Shown: piece by piece, positions 1,276 through 6,454 of the stretch | Layout: every line of letters starts with the position of its first letter | Numbering within the stretch: position 1 is the stretch's first letter | Source of the DNA: a virus | DNA: 28,158 nt | Reading direction: 5' to 3' (one strand) | IMG/VR virus record: IMGVR_UViG_3300021962_000500 | Span: 1 to 28,158 of that record | Program-made: the position numbers and the translations under genes | The notes under the pieces: model-generated | What the model was told of the DNA's origin: nothing | Seen by the model: the letters and a program-made list of their open reading frames with translations, nothing else | Databases searched by the model: none

Positions 1276-1520
1276 CCATCCAAGCCCTGCAAGACTGCCT
1301 GATTGTTCGCCCTGACATCGAGAAACACGCCCTGTTGATCATGCTGCGAGAGAAGAAAACGGGCACTGGCACCGTTATCTCCGCTGGCCCACAGGCTATG
1401 GACATCAAAGTCGGCGACAAAGTATTGTTTGGCGATTCCATCGGTCAGGACTTAAAATGGGAAGGTGAAGACCTCCTCGTAATGCGCGAGTTGCACACCC
1501 TCGGAGTATTTGAAGCATGA
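1272..1520 (+). CDS. GroES-like co-chaperonin (Cpn10) encoded by the phage
   Basis: An 82-residue protein with the GroES layout: an N-terminal strand LQDCLIVRP, a flexible mobile-loop region (about residues 17-31) with a hydrophobic LLIML patch where GroES carries its IVL GroEL-binding triad, then TGTGTVISAG, IKVGDKVLFG and the C-terminal GEDLLVMRE signature. E. coli GroES is 97 residues; this form is shorter, mainly in the loop and roof. GroES caps GroEL during folding of encapsulated clients. The gene sits by ATGA overlaps between the small basic protein and the portal gene, so it is made with the head proteins, and P22-type coat proteins are known GroEL clients. It is likely to work with the host GroEL, since no GroEL gene is in the window. 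Confidence 0.82.
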   Translation: MTIQALQDCLIVRPDIEKHALLIMLREKKTGTGTVISAGPQAMDIKVGDKVLFGDSIGQDLKWEGEDLLVMRELHTLGVFEA

Positions 1521-3724
1521 AAGACACCACCGGAATCGTCGCCGCAGGAAATGTGGCAAACAACGGCCCGTACCCCTCAAAAGGCGGTTCCGATGACGTT
1601 CTTGCCGTTGCCCGCTCACGCATGACAATGGCGATCTCGGCCTACTCGGACACCCGAGAGGACGAGCTTGACGATCTGCGGTTCTACGCAGCGTCCCCGG
1701 ACAACCAGTGGCAGTGGCCCGCCGATGTGCTCCAAACCCGTGGCGCTGTCCAAGGTCAAACCATCAACGCCCGCCCCTGCCTGACCATCAACAAGCTGCC
1801 CCAGCACGTCCACCAGGTGACGAACGAGCAGCGCATGAACCGCCCTGGCATCAAAGTCATCCCCGCCGATGACAAAGCCGACGTGGACATGGCCGATGTG
1901 TTCAACGGCGTCATTCGCCACATCGAATACATGAGCGATGCTGACGTGGCCTACGACACCGCTTGCGAGAACCAAGTGTCCTACGGTGAAGGCTACATCC
2001 GTCTGCTGACCGAGTATTGCGACGAAGACACATTCGACCAAGACATCAAGATTGGCCGCATCCGCAACAGCTTCAGCGTCTACATGGACCCCATGATCCA
2101 AGACCCCACGGGCGCAGACGCCCGTTGGTGCTTTGTCACGGAAGACCTGACCAAAGCTGAATATGAGCGTCTGTACCCCAATTCCGCACCCATCAGCACC
2201 CTGATGAGCCTTGGCGTGGGCGACCAGTCGATCAGCCAGTGGATCAACGAGAACACGATCCGCATTGCCGAATACTTCTACATCGAGTACGAGAAGCAAA
2301 CGCTCAATTTGTACCCCGGCAACCAGACTGCGTTTGACGGCACCCCCGAAGACAAGTCTTTCCGAATGATGTTCGGCAAGCCCTTGCGCTCCCGCGAAGC
2401 CGACCGCAAAAAGGTCAAATGGTGCAAGATCAACGGCTACGAGATCTTGGAAGAGCGCGAGTGGGCCGGTGCATACATCCCCGTGGTGCGCGTGGTGGGC
2501 AACGAGTTTGAGGTTGATGGCCGCATGTACGTCAGCGGTCTGGTGCGTAACGCCAAAGACGCGCAGCGCATGTACAACTACTGGGTGTCGCAGGAAGCCG
2601 AGATGCTGGCACTCGCACCCAAAGCCCCTTTCATCGGCTACGGTGGTCAGTTCGAAGGCTACGAGCAGCAGTGGAAGACGGCCAACACAAACAACTGGCC
2701 CTATCTGGAAGTCAACCCTGACGTGACCGACGGTCAGGGTCAGGTGCTGCCTTTGCCAGCCCGCGCCCAGCCCCCAATGGCCTCCAGCGGCCTGTTGCAA
2801 GCCAAATCGGGTGCCGCAGAAGACATCAAGTCAGCCACCGGCCAGTACAACGCATCGCTGGGTATGACCAGCAACGAGCGCTCCGGTAAGGCTATTTTGG
2901 CCCGCCAGCGTGAGGGTGATGTTGGCACCTACCACTACGTTGACAACCTGGCCCGTGCGATCCGTCACATTGGCCGTCAACTCGTGGACCTGATCCCCAA
3001 GATTTACGACACCGAGCGCATCGCCCGGATCATTGGTGAAGATGGTGAGCCATCGACCGTCAAGATGAACCCGATGCAGCAGGAGCCGGTCAAACGCATC
3101 GTGGACCAAGAAGGCACCCTGATCGAGAAAATCTACAACCCCAGCGTGGGCAAGTACGATGTTCGCGTGATCACCGGTCCCGGTTACGCCACCAAGCGCC
3201 AAGAAGCTCTGGAGAGCATGGCTCAGTTGTTGCAGGGCAACCCACAGTTGTGGCAAGTTGCTGGCGACCTGTTTGTCAAGAACATGGACTGGCCCGGTGC
3301 CCAAGACCTTGCCAAGCGCTTCAAGAAAACCATCGACCCCAAAGTGTTGGCCGACGAGGATGACCCAGCCTTGGCCGCTGCCAACCAACAGTTGGAGGCA
3401 ATGAACGCTGAGATGCAAAATATGTTCCAGATGTTGCAAAACGTCAGTCAGAGCATGGAAGCCCGCGAACTCCAGATCAAAGAGTTTGAAGCCGAGGTCA
3501 AGGCTTACGGTGCCGAAACACAGCGCATCAGCGCGGTGCAAGCTGGCATGTCGCCCGAGCAGATCCAAGACATCGTGATGGGCACCATCGCTGCGGCAAT
3601 GGACACTGGCGACTTGGTTGGTGGTGCACCTCAGATGCCCCCGATGCAGCCGCCCCAGATGCCGATGGAGCAGCCTGAAATGGCCCCACCACAAGGTCAA
3701 ATGCCACCTGAAGGGATGATGTAA
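1517..3724 (+). CDS. Portal protein, P22 gp1-like
   Basis: A 735-residue protein, close to the 725 residues of the P22 portal. The dodecameric portal is the vertex through which DNA is packaged and ejected and on which the tail is built. Recognisable features are the N-terminal ARSRMTMAISAYSDTREDE helix, the TINKLPQHVHQVTNEQRMNRP segment, YGEGYIRL, and the region around SATGQYNASLGMTSNERSGKAI that is typical of P22-type portals. About residues 620-680 are helical with coiled-coil potential, in the position of the P22 barrel. The last 40 residues are a Pro/Met/Gln-rich tail, probably disordered. Its ATG overlaps the GroES stop (ATGA), and its TAA overlaps the next start (TAATG). Confidence 0.93.
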   Translation: MKDTTGIVAAGNVANNGPYPSKGGSDDVLAVARSRMTMAISAYSDTREDELDDLRFYAASPDNQWQWPADVLQTRGAVQGQTINARPCLTINKLPQHVHQVTNEQRMNRPGIKVIPADDKADVDMADVFNGVIRHIEYMSDADVAYDTACENQVSYGEGYIRLLTEYCDEDTFDQDIKIGRIRNSFSVYMDPMIQDPTGADARWCFVTEDLTKAEYERLYPNSAPISTLMSLGVGDQSISQWINENTIRIAEYFYIEYEKQTLNLYPGNQTAFDGTPEDKSFRMMFGKPLRSREADRKKVKWCKINGYEILEEREWAGAYIPVVRVVGNEFEVDGRMYVSGLVRNAKDAQRMYNYWVSQEAEMLALAPKAPFIGYGGQFEGYEQQWKTANTNNWPYLEVNPDVTDGQGQVLPLPARAQPPMASSGLLQAKSGAAEDIKSATGQYNASLGMTSNERSGKAILARQREGDVGTYHYVDNLARAIRHIGRQLVDLIPKIYDTERIARIIGEDGEPSTVKMNPMQQEPVKRIVDQEGTLIEKIYNPSVGKYDVRVITGPGYATKRQEALESMAQLLQGNPQLWQVAGDLFVKNMDWPGAQDLAKRFKKTIDPKVLADEDDPALAAANQQLEAMNAEMQNMFQMLQNVSQSMEARELQIKEFEAEVKAYGAETQRISAVQAGMSPEQIQDIVMGTIAAAMDTGDLVGGAPQMPPMQPPQMPMEQPEMAPPQGQMPPEGMM

Positions 3725-4086
3725 TGAGTTGCGCTGAATTCATGGGTGAATTGTTCTTGGCGCGGGATGTGGCCCATTCCGTGCATCTCAACACCCGCAG
3801 TTTTTCCAAACACTCGGCGTTAAACACGTTTTACGACGAGATTGTCGAACTTGCTGACAAATATGCCGAGGCGTACCAAGGTCGTCATGGCATGATTGGA
3901 CCAATTTCTCTGAAATCTGCCCGCAAGGATGGTGCGATTTTGGCGTTTTTGGAAGACTCGATGAAGTACATCGAGGACAATCGGTACAAAGTCTGTGACA
4001 AGACCGACTCTGCGCTGCAAAACATCATCGACGAGATTGTTGGGTTGTACCTGTCAACAATCTACAAACTCAAATTCCTCGCATAA
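3724..4086 (+). CDS. Ferritin/Dps-like helical protein (DUF5856-like)
   Basis: A 120-residue, mostly alpha-helical protein starting at the ATG that overlaps the portal stop. The segment HLNTRSFSKHSALNTFYDEI followed by VELADKYAEAYQGRHG resembles the first helix pair of Dps/ferritin-like proteins (the HxxTxSxxxHxAL pattern followed by an acidic helix). Phage proteins of this kind have been grouped, as far as I recall, as DUF5856. Whether it binds iron is uncertain: His and Glu/Asp residues are present, but the protein is shorter than Dps (about 160 residues). Its place between portal and scaffold suggests a virion or assembly accessory, but no such role is shown by the sequence. Confidence 0.7.
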   Translation: MSCAEFMGELFLARDVAHSVHLNTRSFSKHSALNTFYDEIVELADKYAEAYQGRHGMIGPISLKSARKDGAILAFLEDSMKYIEDNRYKVCDKTDSALQNIIDEIVGLYLSTIYKLKFLA

Positions 4087-4095
4087 GGATCAACC

Positions 4096-4365
4096 ATGTC
4101 TTCCAATTACGCACAAATCACCGCCACCCGTCAGATCAAGCCCATGTCGGCCAAGCTGAAGGGTATTTTTGTCAGCGCTGCGTCAAGCACCCCGACAATC
4201 ACCGTGTACGACTCCGCTGTGTCCAGCGCCAGTGATCCTGTGATCCTTGCCACGTTCACTCCTGTGGCCGCTACACACTACAACTTTTTTGACGGCATAT
4301 TTACCAACAAAGGTCTGTATGTTGTCATTTCGGGCACCGTTTCTTGCACTATTGCGTTTGAATAA
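4096..4365 (+). CDS. Small beta-rich protein, possible head accessory
   Basis: An 89-residue protein with alternating hydrophobic strands, Ser/Thr-rich, and no charged helices. The start at 4096 has the Shine-Dalgarno AAGG in TAAGGATCAACCATG, an intergenic string repeated almost exactly before the gene at 12475. The fold looks like a small beta sandwich or barrel (strands around AKLKGIFVSA, TITVYDS, HYNFFDGIF, GLYVVISG, CTIAFE). Similar short beta proteins occur in head operons as decoration or hypothetical proteins. I cannot name a family. A head decoration role is a guess from position between portal and scaffold. Confidence 0.65.
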   Translation: MSSNYAQITATRQIKPMSAKLKGIFVSAASSTPTITVYDSAVSSASDPVILATFTPVAATHYNFFDGIFTNKGLYVVISGTVSCTIAFE

Positions 4366-4430
4366 AATTCAGGTGTAAGATGTCCCCTGTACCGGCCCAG
4401 TAGACCGGGGAATCGAAAGGTTCATTTTCC
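4366..4430 (+). promoter_or_regulatory. Structured mRNA leader of the scaffolding gene (candidate translational control)
   Basis: This 65-base gap is unusual in an operon whose genes otherwise nearly all overlap. It can form a CCGG/CCGG stem (4392-4395 with 4405-4408, 9-base loop). Directly after it comes a 5-bp stem GAATC/GGTTC (4410-4414 with 4419-4423) closed by a GAAA (GNRA) tetraloop at 4415-4418. The only Shine-Dalgarno-like bases (AAAGG, 4416-4420) lie in the loop and 3' arm of that second hairpin, 10 bases before the scaffold ATG. No good -35/-10 pair was found. P22 scaffolding protein is known to repress its own synthesis post-transcriptionally, so a translational switch is a reasonable inference. 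Confidence 0.45.
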
Positions 4431-5231
4431 ATGACTGATGAAGTCCAAAACTTAGCGGAAGCAGACTCCGCGCCAGCAACCGAGGTGACGGCCACCACGG
4501 ACAACGCTTTAAACTCGCCGGTAGTCGCTGATAACGAAGGTGAGCAAACAGCAGAAGAGAAGAAATTCTCCCAAGCCGAACTCGATTCGATGATTGGCAA
4601 GCGCCTCGCAAGAGAACAGCGCAAATGGGAACGTGAGCAGCAAGCAAAGCTGGCCGAAAGGCAAGCCGCGCAATCGGTGCCCAAGGAACTCCCGCCTGTG
4701 GATCAATTTGAGTCCCCTGAAGCCTATGCGGAAGCGTTGGCGATGAAGCGGGCCGAAGAAATGCTCCACCAGCGTGAACTCCAAAAGCAACAAGCTGCGA
4801 TTGAGGACACCTACGCAGAGCGTGAGGAAGAAGCGCGGAACAAGTACGACGACTTCGAACAAGTCGCCTACAACCCCCAGCTTCGAGTCACCGATGTGAT
4901 GGCCGAAACAATCAAAAGCTCCGATCTTGGACCCGATCTGGCCTATTGGCTAGGTAGCAACCCCAAGGAAGCTGAACGCATTTCTCGTCTGTCGCCGTTA
5001 TTGCAAGCGCGTGAAATTGGAAAGATCGAAGCCAAAATTGGTGCCGAACCTGTCCAAAAAAGAACCTCGTCCGCGCCTGAACCGATTCGTCCGGTCACCG
5101 CCCGTGCTGTCAACCCTGGTGTCACCGACACCACCGATCCTCGTGCTGTAAAAACCATGAGCACATCGGACTGGATTGCAGCCGAGCGCCAACGACAAAT
5201 TGACAAAGCACGGGCACTCCGCAATCGCTAA
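4431..5231 (+). CDS. Scaffolding protein, P22 gp8-like in role
   Basis: A 266-residue acidic and then highly charged helical protein directly before the coat gene, the standard place for the scaffold that guides procapsid assembly and then leaves. Residues 1-42 are acidic and Ala/Thr-rich, probably disordered. Residues 45-140 are a long Glu/Lys/Arg/Gln helix region with strong coiled-coil character. The C-terminal 25 residues are a basic helix (WIAAERQRQIDKARALRNR), matching the basic C-terminal coat-binding element known in P22 scaffold. P22 gp8 is 303 residues. Sequence identity to gp8 is not evident by eye, so the call rests on composition and position. Translation may be controlled by the leader just upstream. 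Confidence 0.85.
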   Translation: MTDEVQNLAEADSAPATEVTATTDNALNSPVVADNEGEQTAEEKKFSQAELDSMIGKRLAREQRKWEREQQAKLAERQAAQSVPKELPPVDQFESPEAYAEALAMKRAEEMLHQRELQKQQAAIEDTYAEREEEARNKYDDFEQVAYNPQLRVTDVMAETIKSSDLGPDLAYWLGSNPKEAERISRLSPLLQAREIGKIEAKIGAEPVQKRTSSAPEPIRPVTARAVNPGVTDTTDPRAVKTMSTSDWIAAERQRQIDKARALRNR

Positions 5232-5245
5232 TTTTAGGAATCATC

Positions 5246-6454
5246 ATGGCAAACAGCCTTTTAACCATTGACATGATCACCCGCAAGTCTCTCGAAATCC
5301 TCGAGAACAACCTGGTGATCACCCGTAACGTGAACCGTCAGTACGACGACAGCTTTGCTGTTGAAGGTGCAAAGATTGGTTCGACCCTGCGTATCCGTTT
5401 GCCCGACCGCGCTCTGGTCACCGACGGTGCCGCTCTGACTGCTCAAGACGACAACGAACAGTACACCACCTTGACCGTTTCTAGCCAGAAACACATTGGT
5501 GTGCAGTTCACTTCTGCCGAATTGACCATGCAGTTGGACGATTTTGCCGAGCGTGTGTTGAAGCCACGTATCAGCCAGTTGGCCTCCTCGGTTGACGCTG
5601 ACGTCGCAAACGCTTTCAAGACCATTGGTAACTCGGTTGGTACCCCCGGCACCACTCCCGCTACCGCTTTGGTCCTGTTGCAAGCCCAGCAAAAGCTCAA
5701 CGAGAACGCCGCCACCATGTCGCCTCGCTACGCTACCGTGAACCCTGCCGCCAACGCTGCATTGGTCAACGGTTTGTCTGGTTTCTTCAACCCCACCGAT
5801 GTCATCTCCCGCCAGTTCAAGAACGGCATGATGGGTGAGAACGTGTTGGGCTACGAAGAAGTCAACATGAGCCAGTCGATCAAGTCGTTCACGACCGGTT
5901 CGCGCACCGCCACTGGTGGTACGTTGTCTGCCGCTGTGAGCACTCAGGGTGCTACCACAATCGCCATCACTGGTGCCGGTGCTGACGCTACTGTGAAAGC
6001 TGGTGACGTGTTCACCGTTGCTGCCACCTACGCTGTCAACCCCCAGACCCGTGAATCCACCGGTTCGCTGTTCCAGTTTGTGGCTTTGGCCGACGTGACT
6101 TTGAACGGTTCTGGTGCTGGTAACATCACCGTGGCTCCAATCTACACCTCGGCAAACGCCTTGGCAACTGTTGACGCCTTCCCTCAGTCGGGTGCCGCTG
6201 TTGTGTTCGTTGGTGCTGCTTCCAGCGCCTACGCTCAGAACTTGGTCTATCACAAAGACGCGATTGCTTTTGCAACTGCCGACTTGTTGTTGCCCGGTGG
6301 TGTGGACATGGCTTCCCGTGCCGTTCACAACGGTATCAGCTTGCGCGTTGTTCGTCAGTACGACATCAACAACGACCGCATGCCTTGCCGTGTTGACGTT
6401 CTGTACGGTTACAGCACCATCCGTCCGCAAATGGCAGCCCGCATCTGGGGTTGA
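5246..6454 (+). CDS. Major capsid (coat) protein, P22 gp5 family
   Basis: A 402-residue protein (P22 coat is 430) with the N-terminal pattern of P22-type coats: SLLTIDMITRKSLEILENNL, then FAVEGAKIGSTLRIRLPDR and a QDDNEQYTTLTVSSQKHIGV strand region leading into the HK97-fold core. Residues about 220-330 are a Thr/Ala/Gly-rich insertion, in the place of the P22 I-domain that aids folding. The C terminus with LLPGGVDMASRAVHNGISLR and VLYGYSTIRPQMAARIWG is typical. Codons are strongly biased to GGT, GCT, GTT and GAC, as expected of the most highly expressed phage gene. The RBS is TAGGA, eight bases upstream. A strong terminator follows within 20 bases. Confidence 0.94.
   Translation: MANSLLTIDMITRKSLEILENNLVITRNVNRQYDDSFAVEGAKIGSTLRIRLPDRALVTDGAALTAQDDNEQYTTLTVSSQKHIGVQFTSAELTMQLDDFAERVLKPRISQLASSVDADVANAFKTIGNSVGTPGTTPATALVLLQAQQKLNENAATMSPRYATVNPAANAALVNGLSGFFNPTDVISRQFKNGMMGENVLGYEEVNMSQSIKSFTTGSRTATGGTLSAAVSTQGATTIAITGAGADATVKAGDVFTVAATYAVNPQTRESTGSLFQFVALADVTLNGSGAGNITVAPIYTSANALATVDAFPQSGAAVVFVGAASSAYAQNLVYHKDAIAFATADLLLPGGVDMASRAVHNGISLRVVRQYDINNDRMPCRVDVLYGYSTIRPQMAARIWG

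Follow-up and report, generated by a model that had tools for sequence, protein, structure and literature searches.

The scaffold gene locus and its leader

The window, meaning the whole 28,158-base stretch of DNA that was analyzed, is a virus record with a P22-type head module. In the ORF list, a 735-aa ORF in the portal position (1517-3724) is followed by a DUF5856/phrog_858 protein (3724-4086; the family is named starvation-inducible transcriptional regulator), which lies between portal and scaffold, and by an 89-aa ORF (4096-4365). The scaffolding protein gene on the plus strand at 4431-5231 encodes 266 aa and matches the head scaffolding protein family phrog_8865 (E 5e-31). Directly after it comes the P22-type coat gene (5246-6454; PF11651, E 2e-39). 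Among annotated relatives, Phage DSL-LC05, which comes from a lake, is the nearest, with 82.5% DNA identity across the scaffold and coat genes. A sequence-only reading of this DNA had pointed to 65 bases ahead of a scaffold gene, and this is borne out: the leader (4366-4430) extends from the stop of the 89-aa ORF at 4365, directly 5' of it, to the scaffold ATG at 4431, and the family matches confirm the scaffold and coat identities.

All leader elements are given on the plus strand. Hairpin 1 (4392-4408) has the arms CCGGCC (4392-4397) and GACCGG (4403-4408) around a 5-nt CAGTA loop. A single G (4409) separates it from hairpin 2 (4410-4423), in which GAATC (4410-4414) and GGTTC (4419-4423) flank the loop GAAA, and a spacer (4424-4430; 3-7 nt in relatives) leads to the start codon. 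Both stems had been proposed earlier and are present, hairpin 1 with one mismatch, C4396.A4404, at which the relatives have C.A or U-A with an invariant A. The same reading placed Shine-Dalgarno (SD)-like bases in the loop and 3' arm of hairpin 2, and the best SD match, AGGT at 4418-4421 (inside AAAGGT, 9 nt before the ATG), is located exactly there, where the stem is predicted to mask it. The GNRA cap that it described is not a conserved feature; the window cap is GAAA, but GAAA is found in just 3 of 67 distinct hairpins, the commonest loop being TTAG. A third element was overlooked. Upstream of a UA linker (4390-4391), the 5' flank of hairpin 1, CTG at 4387-4389 (ACYG, AACCG and similar in relatives), is predicted to pair with the hairpin-1 loop at 4398-4400, which would make an H-type pseudoknot of 3 bp in the window.

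The leader folds at -13.8 kcal/mol, and 129 of 200 shuffled sequences did equally well or better (z = +0.36). By energy alone, the window leader could be chance; as the single-sequence energy is not significant, we dropped it as evidence, and comparison with relatives decides. Rfam 15 gave no match at the gathering score in the window, none for 4340-4480 at E values up to 10, and none in nine relatives. An intrinsic terminator was rejected, since neither hairpin is followed by a T-run and terminator-like matches in the region are at background.

The region might also be read as a short upstream ORF or a readthrough start. Such an ORF exists in the window at 4380-4403 (7 codons, MSPVPAQ-stop), from an ATG at 4380 to a TAG at 4401-4403, overlapping the leader and in frame with the scaffold start. 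Against this reading, which we consider extremely improbable, the in-frame upstream ATGs of relatives (32 of 106 have them) are scattered in position and belong to no conserved ORF, and L004, at 95% protein identity, lacks the ORF. It was rejected for this non-conservation.

Covariation of hairpin 1 and the pseudoknot among close relatives

Relatives were collected from IMG/VR as 80 loci through the scaffold and 80 through the coat, together with phage records. A strict anchor, consisting of TA and four outer pairs, fits 107 of the 111 placeable leaders. The four outside it are L151 and L160, which were found by the covariance model, L141, whose start is misplaced, and the divergent ctNMl277. 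Because the anchor demands four pairs, the paired fraction at these pairs is no evidence, and the base changes within them are the evidence. Covariation was assessed with shuffled and slid controls and with parsimony on a tree. A covariance model built from 43 relatives places the window leader at 4384-4424 with 58.1 bits (E 1e-13), the sole significant match in the window; the window leader is itself among the 43 rows, and relatives not included in the model likewise have scores far above background.

Among 92 distinct leaders, hairpin 1 has two-sided changes at four of its six pairs. For example, one pair is C-G in 55 leaders and U-A in 37, and another is C-G in 61, G-C in 26, U-A in 4 and A-U in 1. 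The fifth pair is U-A in 23 and C.A or another non-pair in 69, and its A is invariant. In the same leaders, four or five bases 5' of the UA linker pair with the hairpin-1 loop, one pseudoknot pair being UA in 49, CG in 36 and UG in 6, and the next GC in 75 and UA in 4. Doubly changed cells numbered 133 in this set compared with 42 in shuffles, and the signal was lost when the partners were slid. On the scaffold/coat tree, three hairpin-1 pairs switched between Watson-Crick pairs in at least 10, at least 18 and at least 19 events, and one pseudoknot pair made at least 19 double switches; recombination could inflate these counts and would not yield matched pairs.

The letters of the pseudoknot can be exchanged almost freely, whereas UA, A4404 and G4409 hardly vary. 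The linker (columns T7 and A8) and the G between the hairpins (column G26) are invariant in the 92 leaders, where the anchor had demanded the TA linker too and as a whole lost just 4 of 111 leaders. A true pseudoknot and a switch between two hairpins would produce identical covariation, and the two cannot be told apart from base changes. A knot of 3-5 bp with a 4-7-nt loop is tight, and the 5-nt loop of the window gives little room for crossing.

Hairpin 2 and the masked Shine-Dalgarno sequence

Hairpin 2 forms all five pairs with a 3-, 4- or 5-nt loop in 92 of the 99 leaders tested; five of the others form four of the five pairs and two form a shifted 4-bp stem. The 43 leaders of the tetraloop class show two-sided changes at four of five pairs and 103 doubly changed cells compared with 28 in shuffles, though this subset was chosen for complete pairing and only the variety of pairs counts. 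The check that had been suggested, a search for covarying pairs in related scaffold leaders, thus came out positive, as both stems show compensatory changes far above the shuffled and slid controls. On this comparative evidence, a conserved RNA structure in the leader is nearly certain. The leader belongs to a new scaffold-leader RNA family that consists of a flank-loop pseudoknot, a UA linker, a G after the stem, an SD-bearing hairpin and the scaffold ATG.

The masked SD generalizes beyond the window. Of 67 distinct versions of hairpin 2, 64 carry their best SD match in the 3' arm, either alone or together with the loop, and so inside a covarying stem. Its forms include GGA, GAG, AGGA and TAAGG, its spacing from the AUG is normal, and 3-7 nt separate the hairpin from the ATG. 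Compared with the SD of the coat gene, that of the scaffold gene is weaker (mean duplex energy -3.7 vs -4.9) and more often paired (unpaired 0.39 vs 0.61), with n = 22 for the coat SD in both comparisons. Hairpin 2 is only moderately stable, with a mean of -4.3 kcal/mol, so the masking may be partial. Because the SD is masked, the leader likely restrains scaffold translation.

A promoter-like site upstream of the pseudoknot

Also overlooked earlier was a candidate extended -10-like promoter element, TGTAAGAT (4374-4381, plus strand), which ends 5 nt before the pseudoknot strand at 4387-4389. Inspection of the sequence found a weak -35-like hexamer, TTGCGT (4352-4357, plus strand), 18 nt 5' of the -10. 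A scan of the window favored another hexamer further 5' over the element at 4374-4381. Of 51 non-redundant relatives, 29 have a best -10 hexamer that ends 3-10 nt 5' of the pseudoknot, compared with 20% in dinucleotide shuffles (p = 6e-9). Many relatives have TTGACA or TTGCCA at 15-18 nt from the -10, whereas the -35 of the window is weak. The within-gene promoter control was uninformative, because the coding sequences, once aligned, have the same weak hexamer in common. From the predicted promoter, transcription in the window may start close to the pseudoknot's 5' strand or even inside it.

The location at a predicted promoter and the nearly palindromic hairpin 1 would also suit a double-stranded DNA element, such as an operator or an early-transcription site, whose dyads mimic hairpins. 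This seems very improbable to us. G-T cells on the plus strand (8 in hairpin 1 and 21 in hairpin 2) fit RNA, and the flank-loop pairing, the preserved pairing of a hairpin 2 that varies in sequence, and the strict placement relative to the ATG and SD likewise speak against DNA. Short inverted repeats are centered on the -10 region in many relatives (e.g., L045, L051, L142 and L147; TGCCGCATAATAGCGGCA, CAGCATAATGCTG), and these are perhaps an operator or an extra hairpin.

Distant P22-coat phages

Phages whose coat is just 31-40% identical to that of the window have the same leader plan in other letters. In isolates, the pseudoknot strands are AACCG..CGGTT (Thalassomonas BA3), GGC..GCC (Shewanella X14 and Vibrio FGH) and AAGC..GCTT (Vibrio VvAW1); they are AGCT..AGCT in ctn9Y15 and AACCT..AGGTT in cta1H496. 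Marine relatives of BA3 have AACG..CGTT, AACCC..GGGTT and AACGT..ACGTT. In distant cases picked by eye as motif carriers (22-24), at least three contiguous Watson-Crick pairs adjoin the junction in 19 of 22 distinct cases, compared with 2.0 when loops were shuffled among sequences (maximum 8 of 22 in 20,000 shuffles), and pair counting over 24 sequences gave a pseudoknot covariation score of 0.76 vs 0.19. When all 51 distant leaders were taken unpicked, some of them near-duplicates, 33 reached a descriptor score met by 0.8% of shuffled leaders. BA3-type phages carry the SD in another hairpin, within its loop or 3' arm, and in ctkAd229 and ctNMl277 hairpin 2 is nearly or wholly absent.

The leader is missing from P22-coat phages in which hardly any gap separates portal and scaffold: the gap is 13 nt in P22 and 14 nt in the EBPR podovirus, and the genes overlap in P26218. 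In P22 (NC_002371), where the portal gene ends at 3879 and gene 8 starts at 3893, the bases upstream of gene 8 contain no pseudoknot. A prophage-like P22-coat locus was observed at about 4120-4180 of L279, a 769-kb contig of Rhizorhabdus histidinilytica. It has an ACCG/CGGT pseudoknot and a 7-bp hairpin with AGGA in its loop before the scaffold ATG, and it received no score from covariance model R1.

Other copies of the pseudoknot

In a scan of IMG/VR, the exact core precedes scaffold genes in 183 of the 183 matches listed, 181 of these genes being assigned by homology and two by the start sequence only. Near-complete relatives carry one strong copy each, and 2 of 19 have a second, weaker copy at E about 0.001-0.002. 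The weaker copy consists of a pseudoknot that lacks the usual hairpin 2 and precedes a small phrog_6228-like gene just 5' of the scaffold gene. A dedicated search found such pseudoknot-only copies before the phrog_6228-like gene in at least 15 of 34 distinct loci (e.g., L033:2645, L105:2778, L005:1207, L161:852 and L156:2219). Some of these copies are then followed by a hairpin with an SD in its loop (TTTTGATTGGAAATCAAAATG). Because of the copies before another gene, and of ctkAd229 and ctNMl277 with little or no hairpin 2, the role of the pseudoknot may not be tied to the scaffold SD. That it is reused ahead of another gene hints that this role is broader. A generic pseudoknot descriptor run over whole genomes scored no higher than on shuffles and was unusable for finding copies genome-wide.

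Significant model matches in four MAGs score the same as those on coat-bearing contigs. With strict filters, the covariance model had no match in 199 other genomes of the family of the hit-bearing Rhodoferax MAG, and capture of a host RNA was rejected on both grounds.

The copies before a different gene would also suit a 5'-end protector, in which the pseudoknot ties up the first nucleotides and shields the scaffold-coat mRNA from 5'-end-dependent decay. It would need no ligand, and hairpin 2 would be a secondary brake or a spacer. The tendency of promoter-like -10 elements to end 3-10 nt before the pseudoknot strand, the interchangeability of its letters as long as pairing is kept, and the missing leader in phages with almost no portal-scaffold gap agree with such a role. 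However, it leaves the location of the SD in a covarying stem (64 of 67) unexplained, and the likely +1 in the window could fall inside the 5' strand. We consider protection of the 5' end rather unlikely.

Proposed function of the leader

The best explanation, in our estimate with a probability of about 0.6, is that the leader represents a structured cis-regulatory RNA family that controls scaffold translation. Transcription would often start close to the 5' strand of the pseudoknot, and the fold would form as the RNA emerges. The ribosome would have to open hairpin 2, so that the scaffold gene would be translated less than the coat gene of the same mRNA. Anything that stabilizes the pseudoknot and the neighboring hairpin 2 would lower scaffold translation further. 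Speculatively, the stabilizer could be unassembled scaffold protein, giving an autogenous control that matches scaffold to coat supply, a step that we would sooner doubt than accept.

P22 scaffolding protein (gene 8) reportedly turns down its own synthesis (1985 work attributed to Wyckoff and Casjens, among the references of PMC5744158), which makes the scaffold protein the natural candidate binder and autogenous control plausible by analogy. We know of no RNA target described for this P22 autoregulation. The window shares with P22 the gene, the portal-scaffold-coat order and the coat family, and differs in that the 13-nt gap of P22 has no such fold. The earlier proposal of a new cis-regulatory leader stands in its structure, compensatory changes and masked SD, whereas its P22 analogy is not directly transferable. 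Since the pseudoknot letters are exchangeable while UA, A4404 and G4409 hardly change, recognition would be by shape and a few unpaired bases, as in T4 gp32. A wider reading is that in many P22-coat phages of alpha-, beta- and gammaproteobacteria, the 5'-end pseudoknot senses the free scaffold pool and closes the adjacent SD hairpin, and that the knot module is reused before other late genes. We hold this to be tentative and somewhat doubtful; if true, it would be a widespread class of phage RNA sensor through which head assembly would exert feedback on its own translation.

Among mechanisms that have been worked out, that of the T4 gene 32 operator is the closest (PMC535899). In T4 and RB69, the autogenous gp32 pseudoknot is a translational operator of gene 32 (PMC535899, PMC3014915). 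As in gene 32, a small pseudoknot lies 5' in a phage mRNA leader, ahead of the ribosome site, and structure is kept while sequence has diverged. The regulated gene is unrelated, and gp32 spreads from the pseudoknot across a less structured, UUAAA-containing SD region, whereas the SD of the scaffold leader is in a covarying hairpin almost directly after the knot. A less structured, UUAAA-rich SD region 3' of the pseudoknot was accordingly not found in the scaffold leader. The rpsO (S15) operator is also an autogenous translational control of pseudoknot type (mentioned in PMC3014915), on a host ribosomal-protein gene.

In tisB, a 5' pseudoknot is proposed to serve standby translation (PMC7708055). 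By analogy, the scaffold leader might enable rather than repress translation, its 5' pseudoknot recruiting 30S/S1 before hairpin 2 is opened. The two parts are indeed the same, a 5' pseudoknot and a sequestered RBS, and yet we find this reading quite unlikely. The tisB standby region lies about 100 nt upstream, while the elements here are 0-1 nt apart; the group of the window has no single-stranded standby stretch, the BA3 group having about 10 nt between elements. tisB is a host toxin mRNA, and its pseudoknot differs in topology, the loop pairing with the 3' flank. Standby and protection of the 5' end, both of them constitutive roles, are the chief rivals of a regulatory leader.

The leader makes up an RNA family that is new but of a familiar kind, a phage mRNA leader with a pseudoknot and a masked SD. 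It is called new because Rfam has no match and no scaffold-leader RNA was found in searches of open-access papers. Many podoviruses, isolated phages among them, carry this compact covarying leader at their scaffold genes; it defines which bases to mutate, and the scaffold/coat balance in phages becomes a directly testable question. The leader would also add a new RNA family for annotation. In three Vibrio phages (1.184.A, 41E34.2 and 1.211.A; L306, L343 and L345), the annotated scaffold start, 5' of the coat gene, is an ATGGC that forms the 5' strand of the pseudoknot, and the RNA leader there seems to be annotated as coding sequence.
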